From assembly GCF_026210795.1 (NCBI RefSeq), contig NC_089431.1, forward strand, positions 4,836,001 through 4,900,000: 64,000 bases of DNA. Direction: 5' to 3'. The DNA comes from Rhizophagus irregularis. Lineage: Eukaryota; Glomeromycota; Glomeromycetes; Glomerales; Glomeraceae. Position numbers and translations under genes: made by a program. Positions 5,498 through 56,100 of the stretch are shown here, piece after piece (positions within the stretch are counted from its first letter, which is position 1; each line of letters starts with the position of its first letter). The notes below the pieces were generated by a model. That model was not told where the DNA came from. It worked only from the letters and a program-made list of their open reading frames with translations, and ran no database searches.

Positions 5498-7442
5498 TCA
5501 ATTTTGTTTTATAACCTGAAATATTTCAAAATCTTCTATAGAAAAACATTCATTGGTTTTTCTAATCGGTTTTTCATAGGAACTCATTTTACAATAATTA
5601 CTATTACCATCGTAAAAATTGTCATAATTTCCGGGACCTCCATGCATTATAAGATCTCCATAACCAAATGATGGACCATAACGACTCCCATAATTTATGG
5701 CATTCTTTTCACTTTTTACTCGACTTATAATGTGATCATTAATACTTTCTTTATTCGTAAAAGAAAATATAAAACTATCCTTAGTATTACCGTAACCAAA
5801 ATCAGATTTCCATTCAACCGGATTATATCCTCCAAGAATTTCATTACTATATTTCACTTTCATTATTGTTAATGTATCGGATTGATTATCGCAAATTTTA
5901 TGGAATTTTTTAGGCGTAAATCCATCGCGAGATCCCCGAAATAATAATTTGAATATATAATTTTGTTTACGTGTAAATATAAATTTCGAAACTAAATTAT
6001 AAGTGGTTGAGCTTTTCACAATATCTACTTTATCAATCCACTTTACAATTAATTCAGCATGTTGACTTGAAATTATTTGAGATTTTGATTGAACCTCTTT
6101 TGTCATCTGAGGATCTGGTTGTATTTGATTTGTCTCTTCAGCCATCAAAGGTTTTGATTGATTCGCCTTGGTTTCATTTTGAGATTTCGGTTGAATTTGA
6201 TTAGTCTCTTCGGCCATCAAAGGTTTTGATTGATTCGCTTTGGTTTCTTTCTTAGGTCTCGGTTGAATTAGATTTGTCTCCTCAGCCATCAAAGGTTTTG
6301 ATTGATTCACTTTGATTTCTTTCTTAGGTCTCGGTTGAAGTTGATTTGTCACTTCAGCCATCAAAGGTTTTGATTGAGTACCTTTAGTTTCTTCAATCTT
6401 CTCAAGTCCTACTTGAATCGGTTCAGTCTCATTTGTTGTTGTAAAAGTATTTAGATTGTTTTTAGATTCCAAAAAATAGATAATTAAATTTTCATATAAA
6501 TTTTCAGGTATAACCTTTTTATAAGGATATACTTTATCTAAAAATTCTTTAGGAGTGAATCTAGTAAATTTAATAAAAGGAATAAAATTTTGTAAAATAT
6601 TTTTTAAAATAATAAAATCATCATTTGAATAATTTGAAAAAGGTTTAGAAGAAAGTTTTAAATTTTGTTTTATACCCCATTCAAGAATATAATCCCAAAT
6701 TTGTACTTCATTCATTTTAATAATAATATTAATATGAATATTAATATTATTATAATTATTATTAATATTATCTTCTTTATCTTTTAAGATTGTTAATAAA
6801 AGATCTTCTGATATAGAAAAAGTATTTAATGATTTTAATATTTTATCAGGATTTTTAATTATAAAATCTTTACAATAATTTTGTAATTTTAAAAATGAAT
6901 CATTTTCATAACTCATTTGATAAATTAAATCAAAATTTTGTTCCATCCAATTTTCTTTATTTTCAATTAAGTAAGATTCTAAATATGGGATTATTTCTTG
7001 TAATCCAAGTTCTTTTGATGTTTTTAAAATTTTAATTATATCAGAAGAATCATAATCTTTTAAAGAAAGTTTTCCACTATAAATATATCTAAAAAAAAGT
7101 AAAGAATTTTTTTTTTACGTAAGTAAAAAAAATAAAATATAATTGAAATAATGACTTTTTTTGAAAAAAAAAAATTTTTTTTCACCTTAAGATTATTTGA
7201 AAAATTTCAGGTAAGATATTTGATAATCTAATATTTATTAAGGTTCCATCATTTTTCTTTTTAATTGTTGATAAAATTTTTTTAAAATAAGGAGAACGAT
7301 GATTTAAGATAACTCTATGGGCGTAAAATATTTTAACGCAAGGGTTGTTACCAACTTCAATTATAATATCATGATATTCTTCATCATTTAAAATTTCAAG
7401 TAAATTTTGTGATAATTTTGGTAATAATTTATTTTGAACCAT
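5498..7442 (-). CDS. BTB-BACK-TLDc domain protein, intact, ~615 aa
   Basis: Exon 1 is 7186-7442 and exon 2 5498-7088. The intron has donor TTAAG|GTGAAA and acceptor TTTTAG, and the join is in frame (616 codons including TGA). BTB lies at about residues 20-95 (LLPKLSQNLLEILNDEEYHD, then VEVG-like IIIEVGNNPCVKIFYAH). BACK is about 110-250 (WMEQNFDLIYQ, VQIWDYILEWGIKQN). A repeated linker covers about 320-430, and TLDc about 465-615 (LLFRGSRDGFTPKKFH, EILGGYNPVEW, DSFIFSFTN, FGYGDLIMHGG), ending in EDFEIFQVIKQN. Family members are normally about 450-500 aa. The excess length comes from the 72-bp linker repeat and from an Asn/Ile-rich insertion in BACK. It is probably a cytosolic adaptor-type protein; substrate unknown. 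Confidence 0.9.
6085..6400 (-). repeat. 72-bp coding minisatellite (4 units of 24 aa)
   Basis: The motif SKPLMAE followed by a TNQIQP-type stretch and a Lys/Glu-rich tail recurs four times in the linker between BACK and TLDc. The gccatcaaag anchor occurs at 6141, 6213, 6285 and 6357, exactly 72 bp apart, so the repeat is in frame and low in divergence. The encoded segment is hydrophilic and likely disordered. Confidence 0.92.
6713..6777. repeat. (ATT)-rich microsatellite within BACK coding sequence
   Basis: Imperfect AAT/ATT triplets encode an Asn/Ile-rich loop (NINNNYNNINIHINIIIK) just before the conserved NEVQIW of BACK. Paralogues have a short NDNVQ/NENVQ-type segment here, so this is an in-frame expansion. 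Confidence 0.75.
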
Positions 7443-12479: not shown

Positions 12480-12860
12480 AATAAAATTAATTTCACATAA
12501 ATAATTTGCAAGATTAATACTTTTATATATATAATACATACCTAATAACCCCAGACCCTTAATTATATATATAATCATTCAAATCTTCACTTACTAGCAT
12601 TTCATTTGCTTTTACACTAGCTTGTGAATCTTCACTTTCAGGAATTTCATTCAACTTTTTACTAGTACTCTCGTCTGTTTTAATAATTAAATAAATAAAT
12701 TAATTTCATATAAATAATTTGCAAGATTAATTTTTTTTATATATTATAGTATATACCTAATGACCTCGAATCTCTGATTAAACAATCATTCAATTCTGAA
12801 TGACTTGCATGATATGCTTTTTCACTTTCAAGAATTTCATTCAATTTTTTACTAGTAAAA
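12480..12860 (-). repeat. Tandem duplication of terminal kinase exon plus intron
   Basis: About 12755-12860 (encoding TSKKLNEILESEKAYHASHS, then ELNDCLIRD) and about 12559-12675 (encoding TSKKLNEIPESEDSQASVKA) are similar. Their flanking intron sequence (aatttcatataaataatttgcaagatta at 12700-12730 and near 12490-12520) is also repeated. The unit is about 190 bp and is a local exon duplication. Confidence 0.65.
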
Positions 12861-14063
12861 TCAAGTAAACGACTTTTAAAACAAGCTTTAGGATGAGATC
12901 TAGTAGCAAGATTTTTATGCCCAATTGGTGCATTTATAAATTCCATAATGTTGCTTTTTAATTCTTCATTAATATCTTCAACTTTCACTTTATATGGGAG
13001 AAAATTCCATTTTTCAATAATTTCAAATACTTCTTTAGAAGATGGTCTTTTTAGTGGATCTTCATTCCAACATTTTTTCATTAAATCTACATAACATTGT
13101 GGAGTATTTTCAATAATTTCAGGACGTTCACCTTTACAAATACTTAAACTAAGATGAATATCATGTGCTCTATTATTAAATGGTGGTATTCCAGATGTAA
13201 ATTCCCACATAATCATAGAAAAACTATATATATCACTAGCTGGAGTATAAGATTTGCCTCTCAAAACTTCAGGTGCCATAAATGGTATAACACCATAAAT
13301 ATCATACTTTTTCAAAAACGATTTTACGGGTTGACATAATCCTAAATCACTAATATAAATTTTATCCTTATTCTCAACATTATGATTTAAAATATTACCA
13401 TCATGAAAATCACAATGAATAAGTTTTTCTTCATGTATATTATTAAGTCCAGAAATAATTTCGTACAACATATATAATTTTTGACTCCAATTATTTACAA
13501 CTATTCTTGTTAAATTTTCTCTTAAGTTACCTTTATTTGCATAATACATTACTACCATATATTTTGATGTATTTGGATCTTCTGTGAATCCATAAAATTC
13601 TATAATATCTTCTGAACTTAAAACACTTGTATGATATTCCCACTATAAAAAATAATAATAATTTATTAATATAAATAAATTAAAAATAGAAAATAATATA
13701 CTATCATACTTCTTTCAAAAATTCATTTAAATCTTCATTTAAATTCTTGTGACATTTAAGAATTACTTCTTCATCTTCTTCATCATCATCTTCTTCATCT
13801 TCTCCATTTCTATTATTCTTTAACCAAATAGCTTTGTATATAGTACCAAATCCTCCTTCATTAAAATATTCAACATTTTTAAATTTGTTATAAGGAAACC
13901 ATCTTAATCCTTTTTCAAGAATAAAATCGTCTATAATTGTATTACCACTTTTCCCAAATCTATAAATTTAATTAATTAAATTTATTATTATAGATTGATT
14001 ATAATTTATACATATAAATTATTACTTACTCTAAATTTAAATAGGAATTTAATGAATACAAGC
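12559..14063 (-). CDS. TKL-type protein kinase
   Basis: Core exons are 14030-14063, 13710-13959, 12757-13642 and 12559-12674, in consistent frame. The encoded N-terminal part reads SYLNLEFGKSGNTIIDDFI, matching the family YL-x-x-EFGKWTSGN-DDFI signature but lacking WT. Kinase landmarks in order: glycine loop NEGGFGTIYKA, acidic insertion (EEDDDEEDEE), VILK lysine, gatekeeper region MVVMYYANKGNLRE, catalytic loop HCDFHDGN, DLG in place of DFG, MAPEV, SDIYSFSMIMWEFTSGIPPF and CWNEDPLKRPSS. The HRD Arg is Cys, so activation-loop control should differ (RD-minus). The C-terminal exon (DESTSKKLNEIPESEDS) looks like a duplicate of the end of the previous exon. An alternative stop lies at 12737 if the donor at 12756 is not used. 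The first exon is uncertain; a candidate lies beyond the tandem array at 19431-19449. Confidence 0.85.
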
Positions 14064-14109
14064 CTTAATTTTTAGATAAATACATATAATAACCTATGAT
14101 TTACGATTT

Positions 14110-17100
14110 ACAACTTACTGACTAAAGTGACAGATATTTTTCAAATAAAAGAATGAATTCAGTTAACAAATAAATATTATATAAAATATATAACTTTAGA
14201 GATACTTACAAGCTAGATCATAAACAATTTTAAATAAAGAAATTAGTTAGTTTAAATTATATGTAAATATTATAACAATAAGTAATAATAGAATTAAATA
14301 AATAACTTATAACTTACAATCTATTAAATAAAGAAATTAGTTAGTTTAAATTATATGTAAATATTATAACAATAAGTAATAATAGAATTAAGTAAATAAC
14401 TTACTCCCTATATTATTTAATAATTTTTTAAATAAAAAAATTAGTTAGTTTAAATTATATGTAAATATTATAACAATAAGTAATAATAGAATTAAATAAA
14501 TAACTTACCATCTATATTATTTAATAATTTTTTAAATAAAGAAATTAGTTAGTTTAAATTATATGTAAATATTATAACAATAAGTAATAATAGAATTAAA
14601 TAAATAACTTACTCTCTATATTATTTAATAATTTTTTAAATAAAGAAATTAGTTAGTTTAAATTATATGTAAATATTATAACAATAAGTAATAATAGAAT
14701 TAAATGAATAACTTATAACTTGCCAACTAAAATAAATTACAAAATAATTTTAAATAAAGAAATTAGTTAGTTTAAATTATATGTAAATATTATAACAATA
14801 AGTAATAATAGAATTAAATAAATAACTTACTCTCTATATTATTTATGTATTTTTAAATAAAGAAATTAGTTAGTTTAAATTATATGTAAATATTATAACA
14901 ATAAGTAATAATAGAATTAAATAAATAACTTACTCCCTATATTATTTAATAATTTTTTAAATAAAGAAATTAGTTAGTTTAAATTATATGTAAATATTAT
15001 AACAATAAGTAATAATAGAATTAAATAAATAACTTTTACTCTCTATATTATTTAATAATTTTTTAAATAAAGAAATTAGTTAGTTTAAATTATATGTAAA
15101 TATTATAACAATAAGTAATAATAGAATTAAATGAATAACTTATAACTTGCTAACTAAAATAAATTACAAAATAATTTTTAAATAAAGAAATTAGTTAGTT
15201 TAAATTATATGTAAATATTATAACAATAAGTAATAATAGAATTAAATAAATAACTTACTTCCCTATATTATTTAATATTTTTTTAAATAAAAGAAATTAA
15301 ATTTAGTTTAAATTATATGTAAATATTATAACAATAAGTAATAATAGAATTAAATAAAGCAACTTATAAACTTACAATCTATTAATAAAGAAATTAGTTA
15401 GTTTAAATTATATGTAAATATTATGTAATAAGTAATAATAGAATTAAATAAATAACTTATAACTTACAATCTATTAAATAAAGAAATTAGTTAGTTTAAA
15501 TTATATGCTAAATATTATAGCAATAAGCAATAATAGAATTAAGTAAATAACTTACTCTCTATATTATTTAATAATTTTTTAAATAAAGAAATTAGTTAGT
15601 TTAAATTATATGTAAATATTATAACAATAAGTAATAATAGAATTAAATAAATAACTTACTCCCTATATTATTTAATAATTTTTTAAATAAAGAAATTAGT
15701 TAGTTTAAATTATATGTAAATATTATAACAATAAGTAATAATAGAATTAAATAAATAACTTACTCTCTATATTATTTAATATTTTAAATAAAGAAATTAG
15801 TTAGTTTAAATTATATGTAAATATTATAACAATAAGTAATAATAGAATTAAATGAATAACTTATAACTTGCCAACTAAAATAAATTACAAAATAATTTTT
15901 AAATAAAGAAATTAGTTAGTTTAAATTATATGTAAATATTATAACAATAAGTAATAATAGAATTAAATAAATAACTTACTCCCTATATTATTTAATAATT
16001 TTTTAAATAAAGAAATTAGTTAGTTTAAATTATATGTAAATATTATAACAATAAGTAATAATAGAATTAAATAAATAACTTATAACTTACAATCTATTAA
16101 ATAAAGAAATTAGTTAGTTTAAATTATATGTAAATATTATAACAATAAGTAATAATAGAATTAAATAAATAACTTATAACTTACAATCTATTAAATAAAG
16201 AAATTAGTTAGTTTAAATTATATGTAAATATTATAACAATAAGTAATAATAGAATTAAGTAAATAACTTACTCTCTATATTATTTAATAATTTTTTAAAT
16301 AAAGAAATTAGTTAAGTTTAAATTATATGTAAATATTATAACAATAAGTAATAATAGAATTAAATAAATAACTTACTCCCTATATTATTTAATAATTTTT
16401 AAATAAAGAAATTAGACCAGTTTAAATTATATGTAAATATTATAACAATAAACAATAATAGAATTAAATAAATAACTTACTCTCTATATTATTTAATAAT
16501 TTTTAAATAAAGAAATTAGTTAGTTTAAATTATATGTAAATATATAACATGCAGTAATAATAGAATTAAATGAATAACTTATAACTTGCCAACTAAAATA
16601 AATTACAAAATAATTTTTAAATAAAGAAATTAGTTAGTTTAAATTATATGTAAATATTATAACAATAAGTAATAATAGAATTAAATAAATAACCTCCCTA
16701 TATTATTTAATAATTTTTTAAATAAAGAAATTAGTTAGTTTAAATTATATGTAAATATTATAACAATAAGTAATAATAGAATTAAAATAATAACATAACT
16801 TACAATCTATTAAATAAAGAAATTAGTTAGTTTAAATTATATGTAAATATTATAACAATAAGTAATAATAGAATTAAATAAATAACTTACTCTCTATATT
16901 ATTTAATAATTTTTTAAATAAAGAAATTAGTTAGTTTAAATTATATGTAAATATTATAACAATAAGTAATAATAGAATTAAGTAAATAACTTACTCTCTA
17001 TATTATTTAATAATTTTTTAAATAAAGAAATTAGTTAGTTTAAATTATATGTAAATATTATAACAATAAGTAATAATAGAATTAAATAAATAACTTACTC

Positions 17101-19345
17101 CCTATATTATTTAATAATTTTTTAAATAAAAAGTAGTTAGTTTAAATTATATGTAAATATTATAACAATAAGTAATAATAGAATTAAATAAATAACTTAC
17201 TCTCTATATTATTTAATAATTTTTTAAATAAAGAAATTAGTTAGTTTAAATTATATGTAAATATTATAACAATAAGTAATAATAGAATTAAATGAATAAC
17301 TTATAACTTGCCAACTAAAATAAATTACAAAATAATTTTTAAATAAAGAAATTAGTTAGTTTAAATTATATGTAAATATTATAACAATAAGTAATAATAG
17401 AATTAAATAAATAACTTACTCCCTATATTATTTAATAATTTTTTAAATAAAGAAATTAGTTAGTTTAAATTATATGTAAATATTATAACAATAAGTAATA
17501 ATAGAATTAAATAAATAACTTATAACTTACAATCCTATTAAATAAAGAAATTAGTTAGTTTAAATTATATGTAAATATTATAACAATAAGTAATAATAGA
17601 ATTAAATAAATAACTTATAACTTACAATCTATTAAATAAAGAAATTAGTTAGTTTAAATTATATGTAAATATTATAACAATAAGTAATAATAGAATTAAG
17701 TAAATAACTTACTCTCTATATTATTTAATAATTTTTTAAATAAAGAAATTAGTTAGTTTAAATTATATGTAAATATTATAACAATAAGTAATAATAGAAT
17801 TAAATAAATAACTTACTCCCTATATTATTTAATAATTTTTTAAATAAAGAAATTAGTTAGTTTAAATTATATGTAAATATTATAACAATAAGTAATAATA
17901 GAATTAAATAAATAACTTACTCTCTATATTATTTAATAATTTTTTAAATAAAGAAATTAGTTAGTTTAAATTATATGTAAATATTATAACAATAAGTAAT
18001 AATAGAATTAAATGAATAACTTATAACTTGCCAACTAAAATAAATTACAAAATAATTTTTAAATAAAGAAATTAGTTAGTTTAAATTATATGTAAATATT
18101 ATAACAATAAGTAATAATAGAATTAAATAAATAACTTACTCCCTATATTATTTAATAATTTTTTAAATAAAGAAATTAGTTAGTTTTAATTATATGTAAA
18201 TATTATAACAATAAGTAATAATAGAATTAAATAAATAACTTATAACTTACAATCTATTAAATAAAGAAATTAGTTAGTTTAAATTATATGTAAATATTAT
18301 AACAATAAGTAATAATAGAATTAAATAAATAACTTACTCTCTATATTATTTAATAATTTTTTAAATAAAGAAATTAGTTAGTTTAAATTATATGTAAATA
18401 TTATAACAATAAGTAATAATAGAATTAAATGAATAACTTATAACTTGCCAACTAAAATAAATTACAAAATAATTTTTAAATAAAGAAATTAGTTAGTTTA
18501 AATTATATGTAAATATTATAACAATAAGTAATAATAGAATTAAATAAATAACTTACTCCCTATATTATTTAATAATTTTTTAAATAAAGAAATTAGTTAG
18601 TTTAAATTATATGTAAATATTATAACAATAAGTAATAATAGAATTAAATAAATAACTTATAACTTACAATCTATTAAATAAAAGTAGTTAGTTTAAATTA
18701 TATGTAAATATTATAACAATAAGTAATAATAGAATTAAGTAAATAACTTACTCCCTATATTATTTAATAATTTTTTAAATAAAGAAATTAGTTAGATTAA
18801 ATTATATGTAAATATTATAACAATAAGTAATAATAGAATTAAATATATAACTTACTCCCTATATTATTTAATAATTTTTTAAATAAAGAAATTAGTTAGT
18901 TTAAATTATATGTAAATATTATAACAATAAGTAATAATAGAATTAAATAAATAACTTATAACTTGCCAACTAAAATAAATTACAAAATAATTTTTAAATA
19001 AAGAAATTAGTTAGTTTAAATTATATGTAAATATTATAACAATAAGTAATAATAGAATTAAATAAATAACTTATAACTTACAATCTATTAAATAAAGAAA
19101 TTAGTTAGTTTAAATTATATGTAAATATAGTAATAATAGAATCAAATAAATAACTTACCATCTATATTAATTAATAATTTTTTAAATAATGAAATTAGTT
19201 AAATTATATAAATAATATAAATATAGATATCATATAACTTACACCCTGTAGTATTATTAATTATTAATTAGTTAAATATAAAGATAATATAAAAGTATTT
19301 ACTTGTAAATTATATATATTACTTACAATCTAGTTATTTAAATTA
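14110..19345 (-). repeat. ~5.2-kb tandem array of splice-signal-bearing units (~48 copies)
   Basis: Units of ~85-120 bp, mostly about 105 bp, share the core ttagttagtttaaattatat followed by gtaaatattataacaataag. Read on the minus strand, each unit ends in an acceptor-like TAATATAG, then 3 nt, then a donor-like GTAAGTTAT. The 3-nt variants are AGA, GGA, ATT, TTG (with a GC donor, GCAAGT), ATG, and at the ends TCA, CTT, GGT and ATT. A few units have indels (15255 and 17525, 4 nt; 16690, signal damaged). The array lies immediately 5' of the kinase exon at 14030-14063 and most likely sits in its first intron. A higher-order period of about 717 bp is visible between about 15.2 and 18.1 kb. Confidence 0.92.
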
Positions 19346-19430
19346 AGAATATAATTAGTTGAATTATGTAAAATATTAAACATGAATTGTTTATAAATAA
19401 AAACTTAATATTTCAGCTTGTTTGATATAC

Positions 19431-19449
19431 CTTTAATACATTTGTCCAT
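19431..19449 (-). other. Candidate first exon of the kinase gene (MDKCIK)
   Basis: ATG at 19449 gives MDKCIK and then G|GTATATC. It resembles Cys-containing starts in this kinase family. The exon is 19 nt (phase 1). Joined to the 34-nt exon at 14030-14063, with or without 3-nt exons in between, it enters the kinase frame without a stop. The call rests on a very short match, so it is tentative. Confidence 0.35.
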
Positions 19450-20100
19450 TACTATATCAAAATTCTTTAAATTACTATATCAAAATCTCAAATTCTCCCC
19501 AACCGGAAAAGTTAAAGTAAATATCTTTTTTTCTTTTTTTTTTTATTATTAAGCGCCTTTAATGCAAAATACATTATGTGCAAAAATGTTGATCACAAGT
19601 ACATCATTGCATATATGACAAATAAACCGGAAGTCCGGAATGTAAATCAATTATTACAAAAATCGCAGTAACTGATTAATCATTTAATTATTAAGCACCA
19701 ATGAAATGATTATCATTCATTAACCCAAAGATAAGATTTTCTGGTAATTTTTATCTTTAAGGGGAAAAAATTTTAGTCGATCATCCCATTTTGACCAGAT
19801 TTTCGCCAAAATTTTCCCATTCCATTTTTAAAAATCACCACATGCACAGTTGCCGTGGATACGAAAAAAATTGCCTTTTTGGTAAAAAAGTCTCCAGTTA
19901 ATCTTTATATTATTATTGTACTTGTACATGTACATGAACATGAACATGAACATGAACATGAACATGTACAGTACATGTACATGTACAGAGAAAGTGAACA
20001 TTCACTATGGAAACTTTTTGCGCTGAGTTTAACTGTGCTGCTCAAAAAGAATGTTAATTTGACAGATCATGAAATAGTATGTTGATCATTTTTTATTAAA
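19450..20100. other. Intergenic with (CATGAA)n microsatellite
   Basis: About 19917-19986 has five CATGAA units bordered by GTACAT palindromes (gtacatgtacatg and its mirror). The open frame over it (His-Glu repeats) is a by-product of the repeat. No gene is supported. Confidence 0.6.
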
Positions 20101-20104
20101 ATGT

Positions 20105-20925
20105 GAAAAAAAAAAAATTTTTTTTTAATCAAAAACGTCAAAAATTTGACGTTTTTGTGATTGAAAAATCAAAAAAAAATTGATTTTTTTTAATCAAAAC
20201 GTCAGACTTGACGTTTTTGTGATTGAAAAATCAAAAAAAATTAATTTTTTTTAATCAAAACGTCAGACTTGACGTTTTTGTGATTGAAAAATCAAAAATA
20301 ATTGATTTTTTTTAATAAAAAACGTCAAAATAATTGATTTTTTTAATCAACTTGACGTTTCTGTGATTAAAAAATCAAAAAAAATGATTTTTTTAATCAA
20401 AAACGTCAGACTTGACGTTTTTGTGATTAAAAAATCAAAAAAAAATGATTTTTTTAATCAAAAACGTCAGACTTGACGTTTTTGTGATTAAAAAATCATT
20501 TTTTTTTGATTTTTATTAGCTAAGAACGTCAGACTTGACGTTTTTGTTATTAAAAATCAAGAAAATTTGATTTTTATTAGCTAAGAACGTCAGACTTGAC
20601 GTTTTTGTTATTAAAAATCAAGGAAAAATGATTTTTATTAGCTAAGAACGTCAGACTTGACGTTTTTGTTATTAAAAATCAAGGGAAAATGATTTTTATC
20701 AGCTAAGAACGTCAGACTTGACGTTTTTGTTATTAAAAATCAAGGGAAAATGATTTTTATTAGCTAAAAACGTCAGACTTGACGTTTTTGTTATTAAAAA
20801 TCAAGGGAAAAATGATTTTTATTAGCTAAAAACGTCAGACTTGACGTTTTTGTTATTAAAAATCAAGGGAAAATGATTTTTATTAGCTAAAAACGTCATA
20901 CTTGACGTTTTTGTTAGCTAAAAAT
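20105..20925. repeat. Tandem array of palindromic CGTCA-TGACG hairpins (~13 copies)
   Basis: A ~61-66-bp unit is repeated about 13 times. Each unit holds ACGTCAGACTTGACGT (inverted TGACG half-sites with a 4-nt spacer) inside wider A/T palindromes (aaaaatcaaaaaaaatgattttt). A first subgroup has gattgaaaaatc spacers and a later subgroup has ttattagctaagaac spacers. No coding capacity. Confidence 0.9.
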
Positions 20926-20934
20926 CAAAAAAAA

Positions 20935-22403
20935 TAGTGTACTTTTGTAAAAGTATACTAATAAATTAATAAAAGATTTTTTTATAAACAATAGATTGTG
21001 TTTAGTGAGATTTATAAAAAAATTTAATGAGACTTTTTTTTAATAATAGTTTGGTATAAAAAAATTTTCTAGGATTTTTTTTTTTAATAATATAATGGTA
21101 TAGTACAATAGATAGATATAATAAAATTTTCTGGAATTTATTTTAATAACAATAGGTATGATAACATTTTTGGTGATTTTTTTTTAATATTAAACAATAG
21201 ATTGGTATCATAGTACAATAGATTTATTTAACAAGATTTTTGTGATTTTTTTAATAACAATAAATTGGTAATAACAATCATTAACTTATTAAGTTAATAA
21301 TTGTTTTTTAGTAAAATTTTTTCCAGTAATACTAATACTACTAATAGGTAATAGATAACTTAATAAACTTTAATAAAATAGATTAAGATATATAAAAAAA
21401 ATTTGAGATTTTTTTAACAATAGATTGGTATAGTACAATGAATAGATATAAAAAAATTTTCTGAATTTTTTTTTTAATAATAGATTGATATAAATATATT
21501 TTCTGAACTTTTTTTTAACAATAGAGTCATTAGATCAATATAAAAAATTTTTTGATAACAACAGATTGGTATGTTATAACTTATAATGGATAGATATAAA
21601 GAATTTTCTAAGATTTTTTATTAATACAATAGATCAGTTTCTGGAATTTTTTATGACAAATTAATTGGTATAGTACAAAAGATACTAGGTATAAAATTTC
21701 TTGGGATTTATTTTAACAACAATAGGTATGATAAAATTTTTGGTGACTTTTTTTTAATAACAATAGATTGGTATTACTGCGACTAGTAATTGAAAACCAA
21801 TATGATTTGCCAATTCATTATCAGTTCAGTTTTTAATGTTTTTGCAACATTTTTTATTGTCTATTACCAATCTATTGTTATTAAAAAAAAACACAAAAAA
21901 TTTTATTAAATCAATCCATTGTACTATACCATCCATTGTATTATAATACCAATCTATTATTGTTATTAAAAAAAAAATAATCACCAAAAATTTAGCATAC
22001 CTATTGTTATTAATATAAATCTCAGAAAATTTTATTATATCTATCTATTGTACTATACCATTAAAAAAATCTTGGAAAATTTTTTTATTAACCTTATTAA
22101 ATGTAATCTATTGTTTTATTTATATTACTTATCAGTAATATTAGTGTTACTGTGAACTATAAAAAAAATCTTACTAAAAACAATTATTAACTTCAGTTAA
22201 TAAGTTAATTGTTTATTACCAATATATTGTTATTAAAAAAAATCATAGAAAATTTTTTTATACCAAACTATTATTAAAAAAAAATCTCATTAAATTTTTT
22301 TATAAATCTCACTAACACAATCTATTGTTATAAAAAAATCTTTTATTAATTTATTAGTATACTTTCAAAAATAAACTCACTCACTATATCCAAAAGTACA
22401 CTA
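20935..22403. mobile_element. 1.47-kb foldback / long inverted-repeat element
   Basis: The outer ends tagtgtacttttg (20935) and caaaagtacacta (22403) are inverted. The next ~150 bp of each arm match closely, including attgtg(t)ttagtgagatttat, aaaaaaatttaatgagac/t and aatagtttggtataaaaaa. The interior is a patchwork of degenerate ttttaataacaatagattgg units in both orientations. No ORF is present. It is probably a non-autonomous foldback transposon, or a collapsed palindrome. The right arm has an extra ~24 nt near its tip. Confidence 0.75.
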
Positions 22404-29232: not shown

Positions 29233-30722
29233 ATGTTTTCGAAATTTTTGGCCGAGTTATCCGATGATTATAAGAAACTTTTTGAAACTGAAATAGGATA
29301 TGATGTTATTATATATGCAGGAGAAGAACCAAATGTTAAAGAAATTCATGCTCATTCAAATATTTTAATCGTTAGATCACAATATTTTCGTGCCGCATTG
29401 TCCAATGAATGGGCAAAAAAAGTAAATGGGAAATTTATTTTAAAAAAACAAAATATTAAACCACATTTGTTTGATATCATTCTTAGGTAATACTATATTT
29501 TTATGGTAATTTTTAATTTTTTTTTATATTTTTAAATAAATTATTAATCATTAATTTGTATTAAAATTATGTTTATAGATTCATTTATTATGGAGATATT
29601 GAATTGAAAAATTTACAAGGTCCTAATGTATTGAACTTATTGATCGCAGTGGATGAACTTAATATTCATTCATTGATTACTTATATTCAGGAATATTTGG
29701 TTGAACATCAAATTGAATTCTTACGTCAAAATCCAACCAGTATTCTTGAAATTATTTATAAACATGAAACTTTTACAGATTTATGGAATTTTTCTCTTGA
29801 AAGAATTTGTGAAGAACCTAAAATATTATTTGATTCTGATAATTTTATTAATTTAAAAGCTTCTTTATTAGAAATATTATTGAAACGGGATGATTTGAAT
29901 ATGGATGAAATTGAAATTTGGGACAACTTATTGAAATGGTGTTTGGCACAGCATAATATGATCAGTGATCCAACAAAATGGAACAAAGATGATATTTCAA
30001 AGATTGAAAGGACATTGCACAAATTTATTCCATCAATTCGATTTTATGATATTGAACCAACAGAATTCTTTTACAAAGTCTATCGTTATAAAGAAATTTT
30101 ACCACGAGACTTAATTCACGATCTTTTGGAGTTTCATATTGTTCCTAATAAGAAACCTAAAACTAATATACCACCTTCAAGAAAACAAAATTTAAAATTA
30201 AATCTTATTATACCAAATCATAATCATCTTTTTGCTTCATGGATTGATAAAAAAGATTCTTCATATTATAATAAAAAGAATGTTCCATATGATTTTAAAT
30301 TATTATATCGTTCAAGTAGGGATGGATTTGATGCTAGAATATTCCATAGAAATTGTGACAATAAAGGAGCTACTATTTGGATAGCAAAAATTGAAGACTC
30401 AACAAATGTAATTGGAGGTTATAATCCACTTGATTGGAATGGAGATGGTTGGAAATATACTAGAAATAGTTTTTTATTCAGTTTTGCAGATTGGAAAAAT
30501 ATTTCTAATACCACAACAAAATTATCTTATATCAATAATAATAAAAGCAAAAATTATGCTATTTATTGTGATAATAATCATGGACCACATATGGGTGATT
30601 TGTATTGCTCTAATTCCAATAATTGGACTTATGATGGTTATTTAGATTACTATCCTAATTTAGATATTCCAAAAAACATTATAATAGAGGATTATGAAGT
30701 ATATCAAGTAATTAAAAAATAA
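29233..30722 (+). CDS. BTB-BACK-TLDc domain protein, intact, ~465 aa
   Basis: Exon 1 is 29233-29486 and exon 2 29579-30722, joined at a split Arg codon (TTAG|GTAATA; TTATAG|ATTC). The ATG at 29233 (MFSKFLAELSDDYKKLFETE) is preferred over upstream non-ATG frame because the paralogue at 40 kb starts at the equivalent place. BTB covers about 20-95 (IGYDVIIYAGEEPNVKEIHA, RSQYFRAAL), BACK about 100-215 (EIWDNLLKWCLAQHN, RFYDIEPTEFFYKVYRYKEI) and TLDc about 300-465 (LLYRSSRDGFDARIFHRNCD, NVIGGYNPLDWNG, SFLFSFADW), ending in IEDYEVYQVIKK. It belongs to a second subfamily (FETEIGYDVIIYAG type) distinct from the 0-7 kb copies. The role, probably as a cytosolic adaptor, is inferred from family. Confidence 0.93.
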
Positions 30723-52096: not shown

Positions 52097-52299
52097 CTCT
52101 ACAAAATTTTTTCAACAGAAGGTTTGTTTTTTTCAGATAATATTGTAAAGTATTATGATATGAATGGTATGAATAAATAATAACAAATATATTATTTATC
52201 GTTTTAAGAAACCTAAAGTGCATGGATCATATTAACTGTAAGAATCTCCGAAGACTACGGCTTGGGTGTGGGTTTGTGTGTGTATGTTTATGTTGTGTA

Positions 52300-53155
52300 T
52301 TTCCTTGCTCCCTTTCGTTTTCCCTTTCCTTTTCCCTTTCCTTCCCCTTTCGTTCTCCCCTTTACCCTTCGTTCTCCCCTTTTCCTTTTTCCCTTCGTTT
52401 CCTCCTTTCCCTTTCGTTATCCCCTTTCCCTTCGTTATCCCCTTTCCCTTCGTTATCCCCTTTCCCTTCGTCTTCCCTTTTCCTTTCGTTATCCCTTTAC
52501 CTTTTTCCCTTCGTTTCCTCCTTTCCCTTTCGTTATCCCCTTTCCCTTCGTTATCCCCTTTCCCTTCGTCTTCCCTTTTCCTTTCGTTATCCCCTTTACC
52601 TTTTTCCCTTCGTTTTCTCCTTTCCCTTTCGTTATCCCCTTTCCCTTCGTTATCCCCTTTCCCTTTCGTTATCCCCTTTCCCTTCGTTATCCCCTTTCCC
52701 TTTCGTTATCCCCTTTCCCTTCGTTATCCCCTTTCCCTTCGTTATCCCCTTTCCCTTCGTTATCCCCTTTCCCTTTCGTTATCCCCTTTCCCTTCGTTAT
52801 CCCCTTTCCCTTCGTTATCCCCTTTCCCTTCGTTATCCCCTTTCCCTTCGTTATCCCCTTTCCCTTCGTTATCCCCTTTTCCCTTCGTTATCCCCTTTTC
52901 CCTTCGTTATCCCCTTTCCCTGCGTCAACCCGCTTCCCCTTCGTTATCCCCTTTCCCCTTCGTTATCCCCTTCCCTTTCGTTATCCCCTTTCCCCTTCGT
53001 TATCCCCTTTCCCTTTCGTTATCCCCTTTCCCTTTCGTTATCCCCTTTCCCTTTCGTTATCCCCTTTCCCTTCGTTCCCTCCTTTCCCTTTCGTTATCCC
53101 CTTTCCCTTTCGTTCTCCCCCTTTTCCCTTCGTTATCCCTTTTCCCTTTCCCCCC
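52300..53155. repeat. 18-bp C/T-rich minisatellite (about 45 copies)
   Basis: The unit ttatcccctttcccttcg and 17-20-bp variants (cctcctttccctttcg, tcttcccttttcctttcg) run for about 850 bp. All three plus-strand frames stay open because the unit lacks stops, giving Phe/Pro/Leu/Ser repeats. I regard these as artefacts of the repeat. Confidence 0.92.
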
Positions 53156-56100
53156 TGATCAATGTTGCTGCACCTCAACGTGGTGATCAGGTGACAACAA
53201 GTTTTGAAAAGACTTGGCTAAGTCAGCAACAAATACTAATTACACATTTGACTTTCCATTGCTTAAATGATTTGTTTTTAGGAAGCACTTGTGGGTTTTC
53301 TCTAACTTTTTGTCTTTCTTGTCTTTCTACTAAAAGCATTTTAGACTTATTTTTGTCGATTGTGTGATAATAGAAAACCTAAACAAACATCTAGCAACGG
53401 ATGGATCTCTATTTACTAAAGAATTGCCATATCCAATGGATACATCCTTATTTTTAGATTCTTCAATTTTCCAAAGTACTGAAATGCAAGCTTAAGTATC
53501 CTTATTAAGTCATATGATGCATTTCCTTTATCAAGTTCTTTATTAATGATCAATTTTACAAACATATAATAAGCTAAAAGCTATTATGCTTACTGTTCTG
53601 TGATTAAATCGATTTGTTCACTTTATTAATTTATTAAATTGATTTCAAATAAATAAATAATTTGATAAATCTAATTTTTTAAGATTATTTGATTTTGCAA
53701 GTTTTCCATAATAACGTTTTTAGGACTAGAATTTTGATGAAATTTTTAATATTCAAATTTAAACAATGATTTTCTATATGTTTTGAACTACGAAAAAAAA
53801 AATTATCATAATTAAACATTGGTTTATAAAAGTCATAGGATTCAGTTATTAAACGTCATAGTGTTTCAATTTAGCCTGTGAAAATTATACAATTGATATG
53901 GGATGTTTATTTTTTATCAAATTGATAGTGTTACCAAAATTTTTGCTATTTAAAATTATTGTTAGGGTTACCCATGAAAATAGTTGAAGATCGAACAATT
54001 CACGTGATGTAGTGCACAGAAATCCCATGATTATGGCTGAGTTTATTACAATATGGAACATTTCTTATAATATATTTTAGTTTTATTTAATTAACCACTT
54101 TTAGTATTATTATTGCTTTTGACTCATAAATATTCAAGTATAAGCATCAGTTTAATTATCATAACATTAGTAAAACTGCTTTATTAGTTAGCTAGAGAAG
54201 TTCTTGAGATTTACATAGTTGATGAATCATATAGACATATGGAACTTACACAAAATGGTAACAGAAAGGTTTTTACAGATAATTGCGATGAGAAAAGAAC
54301 AATTGATTGATTAATCAATCATATTAGTATAATAAGATAATATTGATAAATTCAAACTGTCATTCATAAGTAATAGTTATTTCACGAGGATCAATGATTT
54401 CACGGCGCAGCCGTAAAAATCATGATATTCCAGTGACTCTGTGAAATAACTTTTACCTATGTCACAGTCGTATGAAGATGTAAACATATATAGGGCAATA
54501 TTTTCTTCTGAATAAAAGTTGTTAACACCTGAGTAGATTTAACAGAGAGTTTAGATTGTGTTATCCGAAGTATTGTTTGATTTGATTGTTAGTTTCTTTT
54601 TTTTTACAGTAAACTTTTCGCGTGTTTTACTTGTTTTACCTTGTGTTTTGTCATTATTTGTTTAATAGATTTTTATTTTTAAGAGACTTTTACATTATTT
54701 ACCAGAATTATACTTTCATTATTAATTTCTATTGAGAATTATTATGATACTCCGATATTTTGTTACAAAATTATTGAAACACCTATAATCTTACTGTTTG
54801 ACCTTTTTGTCACAACTGATCAGTTTGACATCTCCGACGTTAGTTATCGCTCCAAACCAAATCAGTGATAACAATAGAAACTTTTATTGCTTAAAATACT
54901 GTAATAACTATATGTAACCTTAAATATAAATAGTTTATTAAAAAAGTTATTAAGCAACTCAATTTTGTCATGAGCGTACTAAAAAATTCAAGATGTTATG
55001 AATAATTCGCCCAATTGAACATTTTATAACTTTAATAATCTTGCTCTTGTAACTTATACTATAGTATAGATCACATGACATTTTAGTTGCTGCGTCACAA
55101 ATTAAATAATAATATACCCAAAAATTTTTTATATGATTTATTTATTATTACTTTGTATCATAAACCGAATGTTTCACTATAAAAGATTTTAAATATATAT
55201 TATATCATAATCACAATTGGATTTATATATTTTTTCTCAATTACATTTTCATATAATTGGAAAAAGAAGAGATAAAGGCACGATTTGTTTTGTACAATAT
55301 AAACAAAGTTTTCTATCTTTTATAAAAAATTTTAATAATAAATCATAGGCGCAAAAACAATTAAGCAATGCATCGATTTTAACGCGTCCATTCACATCTC
55401 CTGTTTTAAAATATACGCGAACAGATACATTATAAGTAATATATAAAAAATAACTAATATGTGTAGATGAATGTTTATTGTATCGATTATTTGTCATTAG
55501 GACCTATACATGGTTTAATATTTAAATAATTTATATATTATAAATATGTCGTATCTTTTTTTTTTATCTCCTCGCATATTATTCGTTATACTGCCTTCTC
55601 AAAAAAGACAGAAACAACTAAAAAGTCAAAAATTATAAGAAGACATTTTTGACCTAACATACCATTAATAATAGAAACACATTGAGGCTTATCGCGAACC
55701 TTCCACTAGGTCGTTTCTGCCAAAATCGAAATCGGAATCGATTAAACTCGATTATCAAATAAAAATCGAAACTATAGTGCCGGCTCGTTTTAATCACGTG
55801 ACATCAGATCTTTGCGTTTATACTAAAGTTTTAATTTCGGCCGGAATTATAAACTTTGGCAGAGTTACCGCCGATTACTGATTATTCGTGCAATAAAACG
55901 TTTTATTTTAAATGCAAAATCATACAATTTAATAATCAAATGATTTATATGTTAAATTTGTGATCATTGGAAATTTTCCACAAATTTAATGATTCTAATT
56001 ATGGAAATCGATTCCAATCCCTACCCTCCACAGCAAGGTACAAATGTTTTATTAATTACTCAATTTATTTTTCAACGGATTTTCTTTTTATTAACTCTAA

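Follow-up and report, generated by a model that had tools for sequence, protein, structure and literature searches.

The window analysed here is a stretch of 64,000 nucleotides from the genome of Rhizophagus irregularis (NCBI RefSeq assembly GCF_026210795.1, contig NC_089431.1, positions 4,836,001 to 4,900,000), and the element in question is a tandem array on its minus strand, upstream from the exons of a protein kinase gene. All coordinates are window positions. Almost every unit of the array carries a splice acceptor and a splice donor three nucleotides apart. The strict pattern AG/NNN/G[TC]A[AG]GT (slashes mark splice junctions), applied to the interval 13900–20000, identified 48 such sites on the minus strand, from 19329 to 14121; an initial sequence-only reading had reported about 48 units of this kind, and its coordinates hold. 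Weight matrices trained on the strict sites of 34 loci, and kept frozen for a hold-out set of 20 loci, called 49 junctions between 14119 and 19329 (minus strand), 47 of them 3 nt and two 4 nt long; the unit at 15378 has a 3-nt junction found by the strict pattern, additional to these 49. Successive strict junctions lie 77–115 nt apart, this step being doubled where one junction was missed. The triplets are AGA, GGA, ATT, ATG, TTG and a single TTA, with ATT, GGT, CTT and TCA at the edges of the array, and a GC donor is present in all seven TTG units, as had been claimed, and in the TTA unit. The triplets originally listed, including those at the edges, are all present, but TTA, two 4-nt junctions and two damaged donors were missing from that list. 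The 4-nt junctions, GATT (17531–17534, minus strand) and GGAA (15259–15262, minus strand), each break the frame as assembled, and the window's own frame is, thus, broken. The damaged donors, identified by eye, lie near 16700 and near 15036. Odd small changes are clustered, again by eye, at 15030–15600 and 16480–16700, regions that take in the damaged donors and the 4-nt unit at 15262; these clusters could be decay or assembly error.

The other predicted exons of the gene lie on either side of the array, all on the minus strand. Exon 1 (ATGGACAAATGTATTAAAG, 19431–19449), which had been recognised at the outset as a 19-nt candidate and is indeed present, is 19 nt long, ends in phase 1 and is followed by the donor GTATAT. 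Downstream from the array, a single-nucleotide exon (A, at 14030) is predicted between TTTAG and GTAAGTAA. The first kinase exon (13710–13959, with the 3' end placed by eye) begins A/TTT GGG AAA AGT GGT... (FGKSGNTIIDDFILEKG...) and has to be preceded by two bases of a codon. The second kinase exon (12737–13642, start at 13642 placed by eye) runs to the stop codon and encodes the protein kinase domain; the open reading frame (ORF) 12737–13558 matches the Pfam families PK_Tyr_Ser-Thr (E = 2.7e-30) and Pkinase (8.6e-29), and the kinase is presumably TKL-like.

Arrays of this type are not restricted to the window. The genome searched comprised 146.7 Mb in 32 contigs, in which the core unit motif had 2694 matches at up to two mismatches (none for the reversed control), the unit from the 5' end of the array had 149 matches at up to three mismatches (control 0), and a landmark from the 3' end had 99 matches at up to two mismatches (control 6). 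A query with the kinase exon gave at least 150 scored matches, this number being a lower bound because the 150 were drawn from 3806 candidates. Among the first 100 of these 150 scored kinase exons, 85 had a landmark upstream on the same strand; the 1-nt site was found no more than 450 nt upstream in 70 cases, and a 5'-end unit from the list was no more than 9 kb away in 60; the count fell to zero when the 1-nt site was given the opposite strand label. Conversely, for 55 of the 100 listed 5'-end units, the 9 kb downstream contained a listed 1-nt site, so the array and the kinase are not paired one-to-one by landmarks alone. The sample read consisted of the window and 63 further loci (64 in total, numbered L001 onwards), and arrays were found in 62 of these 63, the first 13 loci fetched all having arrays like that of the window. 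An array-free ancestor was sought among the 15 kinase exons without a landmark, 10 of which were read: nine had arrays, of 4–25 units, and only L055 had none. The number of called units per locus ranges from 4 to 49 (54 loci), loci clipped by the fetched stretch understating the length. The kinase genes with arrays form an expanded paralogous family, and protein kinase genes with codon-sized exon arrays seem, from these sequence matches, to number about 150.

The 3-nt spacing recurs at many sites in the genome. An exact census of TATAG-N3-GTAAGTTA gave 2129 occurrences, versus 15 for the reversed-pattern control, and the other spacings gave 27 (N2; control 28), 9 (N4; control 22) and 38 (N6; control 19); N3 alone is far above its control, with N6 at twice its own. 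These genome-wide counts exclude chance as the source of the spacing. In the 34 loci used for training, 713 donor-like sites had an acceptor no more than 40 nt away, and the spacing was 3 nt for 680 of them; in the 20 hold-out loci, it was 3 nt for 617 of 650 (94.9%). Donor-like sites without an acceptor numbered 146 and 114, respectively. Among the exceptions in the 34 loci, most were either an additional donor-like word next to a junction of 3 nt or words resembling the 1-nt site in the introns that follow; the others included three 2-nt, four 4-nt and three 6-nt junctions, plus one 6-nt junction that can be read as 3. The hold-out exceptions included three 2-nt, two 0-nt and five 6-nt junctions, three of these last being readable as 3. 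Zero-length AG/GT junctions are, thus, rare (0/713 and 2/650). The two found, both AG/GTAAGT sites within arrays (L034:2062 and L052:4291, 0-based on the sense strand), resemble recursive splice sites and keep the frame. Overall, 1612 of the 1632 called units, from 63 of the 64 loci, are predicted exons of 3 nt.

The exons flanking the arrays close the reading frame. An exon 1 of the form ATGG...AAG was identified in 39 loci of the 54-locus set but not in the other 15; it was 13, 19, 22 or 31 nt long, and its length was 1 modulo 3 in all 39. The 1-nt exon site, TTTAG/A/GTAAG, is present 3' of the array in 48 of the 49 loci reaching that far and was not found in L008; the stretches for L001, L009, L010, L011 and L013 stop short of it. 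A kinase exon was recognised in 43 of the 54 loci, and in all 43, two bases of a codon have to be in place before it. As exon 1 leaves one base and the kinase exon requires two, use of the 1-nt exon implies that the array contributes a multiple of three nucleotides (1 + 3n + 1). A 34-nt second exon had been put forward in the sequence-only reading. A candidate acceptor for such an exon exists upstream from the 1-nt site in 41 of 48 loci, with a length of 1 modulo 3 in only two of the 41 and an in-frame stop in 32; only in the window is the exon both of the right length and open, and this exon was rejected, the conserved element being the 1-nt site, at 14030 in the window. An extra exon, with SSNIEEFEESGTEEFEGSGT-like acidic repeats (by eye), was observed upstream from the array in L001, L002, L006, L010 and L013, apparently entered and left in phase 1. 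In L015 and L026, exon 1 predicts the N-terminus MGQCIGK, which we take to resemble an acylation site; in many paralogues, the second residue is D instead.

If the triplets are joined in phase 1, each codon is made up of the third base of a triplet plus bases one and two of the triplet after it, and a pair such as ATT-AGA is forbidden because it creates a stop. This phase was forecast before the sequences of the first loci were read, and the outcome for the hold-out loci was likewise forecast before they were fetched. Only two stops occur in the 1426 adjacent pairs of the 64 loci, versus 34.2 ± 4.6 when the order of the triplets is shuffled, with none of 5000 shuffles as low. The phase 2 reading, with 214 stops in the same pairs, was rejected. 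The phase 0 reading, with five stops, was also rejected, as it leaves the order effect unaccounted for. Pseudo-exons placed at 12 shifted positions in the introns gave 8–235 stops in 1423–1426 pairs. The same pattern is seen in each subset: one stop in 355 neighbouring pairs in a less strict initial pass through 14 loci, in which overlapping words were also counted, 14 TAA among them; two in 669 with matrix calls in the 34 loci (shuffled 15.6 ± 3.2, 0/5000 as low); none in 625 in the hold-out (shuffled 14.2 ± 2.9, 0/5000 as low); and none in 132 in L054–L063. Stops reappear when the order is reversed (24/669 in the 34 loci, 14/625 in the hold-out) or when triplets two apart (9/584 and 9/574) or three apart (12/508 and 15/529) are paired; phase 2 gave 98 stops in the hold-out. 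In the 34 loci, the next triplet starts with AA, AG or GA in 2 of 161 pairs whose first triplet ends in T, versus 51 of 378 other pairs; the hold-out values are 0 of 145 versus 48 of 329, within-locus repeats having been removed in both sets; the contrast therefore holds despite the relatedness of the copies. As the triplets are separated by introns of about 100 nt, it is difficult to conceive of a DNA-level cause for an effect dependent on both order and phase.

The composition of the units also distinguishes the triplets from their surroundings. The array introns have the form GT(C)AAGT...TAACTAA-like...TAG, with a median length of 96 nt in the 54 loci (1379 GTAAGT donors and 1367 TAG acceptors), and we take the TAACTAA-like motif to be the branch site. 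Triplet GC content is 40% (43% in the hold-out), versus 9–11% for the introns, and 51 of the 64 possible triplets occur among the called 3-nt units, with TAA and TAG never present. Divergence was measured in 54 loci (1445 units) for pairs of units with at least 94% agreement in their other bases. Within loci, the triplets differ at 0.267 per site, versus a median of 0.018 and a maximum of 0.052 for other 3-nt windows; between loci, the corresponding values are 0.466, 0.025 and 0.184. Triplets, thus, diverge about 15-fold more per site than the flanking intron, and they differ more than the intron in 35 of the 38 loci with at least five near-identical pairs. In 221 of 654 within-locus pairs, the triplets differ despite 96 identical flanking bases, all three bases differing in 36. 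This hypervariability fits diversifying selection on the residues with homogenised introns, an alternative being that the introns are homogenised while the triplets are under little constraint. Certain triplets go with a particular end of the preceding intron, ATAACTAG being found with ATT in 36 of 36 cases and TACTACAG with GGT in 38 of 40, which argues that units have been copied whole, at least in part; the intron end TAATATAG goes with 37 different triplets.

The array is, very probably, a set of codon-sized, phase-1 coding microexons of the kinase gene, joined in order and translated, as judged from frame closure in 54 loci, ordered stop avoidance in 64 loci and composition; among the possibilities listed in the sequence-only reading, it is the microexon array that these data favour. 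The mRNA would consist of exon 1 (followed in some paralogues by the extra phase-1 exon), the triplets in their genomic order, the 1-nt exon and the kinase exon. For the window, the predicted joined string is ATGGACAAATGTATTAAAG followed by ATT GGT ATG ATT TTG GGA GGA ATT GGA TTG; for L035 (G000:C6:1473500-1478300), it would be ATGGACCAATGTATTGAAG followed by ATT GGT ATG CGA CGA CGA ATT GGG ATT ATG. Since all array introns would be in phase 1, each residue would straddle a junction, and the predicted product is an N-terminal segment of about 4–49 residues differing between the roughly 150 paralogues. Translated in this phase, the segment often starts with (AL.)DW[WYF] and ends with [PA]F before E-FGKSGN and the kinase, and its predicted length changes by single residues among loci. 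These short introns are probably recognised across the intron. Two neighbouring introns could not both be assembled at the same time over 3 nt, and removal would therefore have to be staggered; the introns may be removed one by one, each removal setting the next donor no more than 3 nt from the growing exon. Unequal crossing-over between near-identical introns could add or remove whole codons with the frame intact, at the cost of an occasional T/AG, T/AA or T/GA stop, apparently purged by selection. The segment might, tentatively, be a rapidly diversified, variable tag serving the kinase in recognition or docking.

The array might instead be a plain minisatellite, composed of intron-derived repeats within one large intron that are never singly spliced, with look-alike splice sites kept by copying. 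The units are indeed tandem repeats, with longer periods also apparent in the window array, and copying alone could maintain the spacing within one array. However, the spacing and the splice signals persist both in edge units that have diverged and in another 62 loci, the triplets have an exon-like GC content, and stops between neighbours are avoided in the forward order and in the phase fixed by the flanking exons; such ordered avoidance does not fit a minisatellite without coding constraint, and this explanation is very improbable. The stop pattern is not predicted by two further proposals of the sequence-only reading either: a stack of duplicated introns with no output, and ratchet points for recursive splicing, in which 3-nt steps would aid the removal of a long intron and the triplets would be incidental. 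Stepwise removal at about 100 nt per step is feasible, and the two true zero-length sites of L034 and L052 are of the kind that a ratchet would use, but a ratchet needs no 3-nt spacer, frame or stop avoidance, zero-length sites are too few in both locus sets and the prevailing spacing is three, all of which makes it extremely improbable. It has also to be considered whether an ordinary coding exon existed first and was invaded by introns at each third base, rather than intron-plus-codon units being duplicated. The identical introns found beside unlike triplets are consistent with such a spread, but the association of many triplets with the type of preceding intron end and the recurrence of some peptides in blocks fit unit duplication, and intron proliferation therefore appears improbable. 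A last possibility, compatible with the microexon interpretation as a variant of it, is that the microexons are genuine but subject, for the most part, to alternative inclusion, generating many N-termini per gene. Any subset of triplets keeps the frame, the truffle microexons discussed below are described in citing papers as alternatively spliced, and pairing triplets two apart gives stops at about two thirds of the rate seen after shuffling. Such stops do occur, however, so frequent skipping would sometimes end the protein; their presence two apart, together with their near-absence between neighbours, favours full inclusion as the main product, and predominantly alternative inclusion seems rather unlikely, if worth serious consideration.

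Several observations weigh against joined and translated microexons. The two remaining phase-1 stops are found in L012 and L015, and 2 of the 46 pairs spanning array gaps in the 34 loci create a stop. Phase 0, in which the triplets are read alone, is nearly open too; this is because TAA and TAG are absent from the called triplets and cannot account for the order effect, so phase 1 is singled out solely by the flanking exons and the effect of triplet order. Frame-breaking units of 2 or 4 nt are present in six of the 64 loci, the window included, and may reflect either decay or assembly error. L055 has a kinase exon that keeps its 1-nt exon site with no array upstream, and looks truncated or relocated. 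The spacing in the hold-out fell just under the forecast of more than 95%. The calling procedure demanded a higher score for spacings other than three, biasing the count of 1612 of 1632 units towards that value; the matrix censuses of the 34 and 20 loci and the exact genome census are free of this bias. Finally, loci L014–L053 were picked because they had landmarks, and the locus counts are not independent, as the array copies are related.

Other features of the window include arrays of about 61-bp tandem repeats at 20107–20935, about 0.7 kb upstream from exon 1, with an inverted symmetry (GACGTTTTT...AAAAACGTC) inside. A TCCCTTTCGTTA-like minisatellite with periods of 18/37 bp, at 52309–53150, lies within long ORFs of all three plus-strand frames (52222–53367, 52262–53158 and 52266–53186). 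TLDc-domain genes are located at 5498–6946, with a 72-bp repeat within the coding sequence, and at 29604–30722, with an additional weak match to BACK.

Truffles (Tuber) are ascomycetes. The sequence-only reading knew of no described array of this kind, but codon-sized microexons have already been reported in the NLR (NACHT-ANK, nank) genes of Tuber melanosporum (Iotti et al., 2012, as cited in PMC10197012, PMC4986451 and PMC3689799). According to passages in the citing papers, these exons are 3 bp long (PMC10197012), number in the 'tens' (in one such passage) and are subject to alternative splicing. As far as these passages go, the two systems have in common tens of 3-nt exons, predicted in the case described here, in a paralogous family that has expanded in a mycorrhizal fungus. 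They differ in that the arrays described here would encode the N-terminus of protein kinases (Pfam PK_Tyr_Ser-Thr for the window gene) rather than part of a NACHT-ANK sensor, involve about 150 genes with a 1-nt exon site after the array, and have a splicing pattern predicted from sequence. The window gene would work like the nank type, but is not a nank gene. No report of codon-sized microexon arrays in this fungus was found among the matches listed from the open-access literature. What is new relative to the truffle case is the predicted presence of such exons in another gene family, in about 150 genes, with a 1-nt exon and with a reading order deduced from the genome itself.

Internal exons of a single phase, a feature of the bicycle genes of aphids, are also indicated for the kinase arrays by frame closure and the phase-1 reading; the exons of bicycle genes are longer than one codon, and their products are secreted, with a signal peptide. 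Passages in PMC9168663 describe these genes as putative plant-gall effectors with about 17 exons on average, one megacycle gene having more than 100 microexons; the points in common are a fast-evolving expanded family and numerous small internal exons, almost all of which share a phase. The MEG genes of schistosomes, as described in passages of PMC10526429, encode secreted proteins and have 10–20 exons of 6–81 bp (3–81 in the abstract), mostly 15 bp, with introns of up to about 5 kb. They share with the kinase genes the possession of many short exons, mostly multiples of three in MEG genes, but the genes described here encode kinases, with predicted 3-nt exons and introns of about 96 nt, and their exon sizes are outside the MEG definition. 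Single-nucleotide exons are known from Arabidopsis APC11 (PMC4674806) and Fusarium CYP621A (PMC12940212), in which, as here, the 1-nt exon is required for the frame; those are isolated exons of one gene or ortholog set with transcript evidence, whereas the 1-nt exon described here is predicted and follows an array in 48 of the 54 paralogues.

These arrays may be part of a system for diversifying proteins by codon cassettes, in which near-identical introns act as recombination handles, the N-terminal tags of roughly 150 kinases gain, lose and reshuffle single residues with the frame preserved, the one-codon exons are under diversifying selection, and the origin is independent of that of the truffle NLR device; this proposal is plausible, but falls somewhat short of being probable. 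Annotation is likely to overlook exons of this size, and the N-termini of kinases from this genome in databases may be wrong. If the microexon interpretation is correct, the load on the spliceosome would be extreme, each of about 150 genes in a single genome containing tens of 3-nt exons plus one of 1 nt, and the arrays would provide natural replicates for testing the limits of exon size, the order of intron removal and splicing fidelity. The parallel with the truffle NLR genes, in an unrelated gene family, would then point to a shared route to variable protein segments and, were the codon-cassette proposal to be true, arrays of codon-sized exons would be a recurrent fungal way of generating variable recognition segments.

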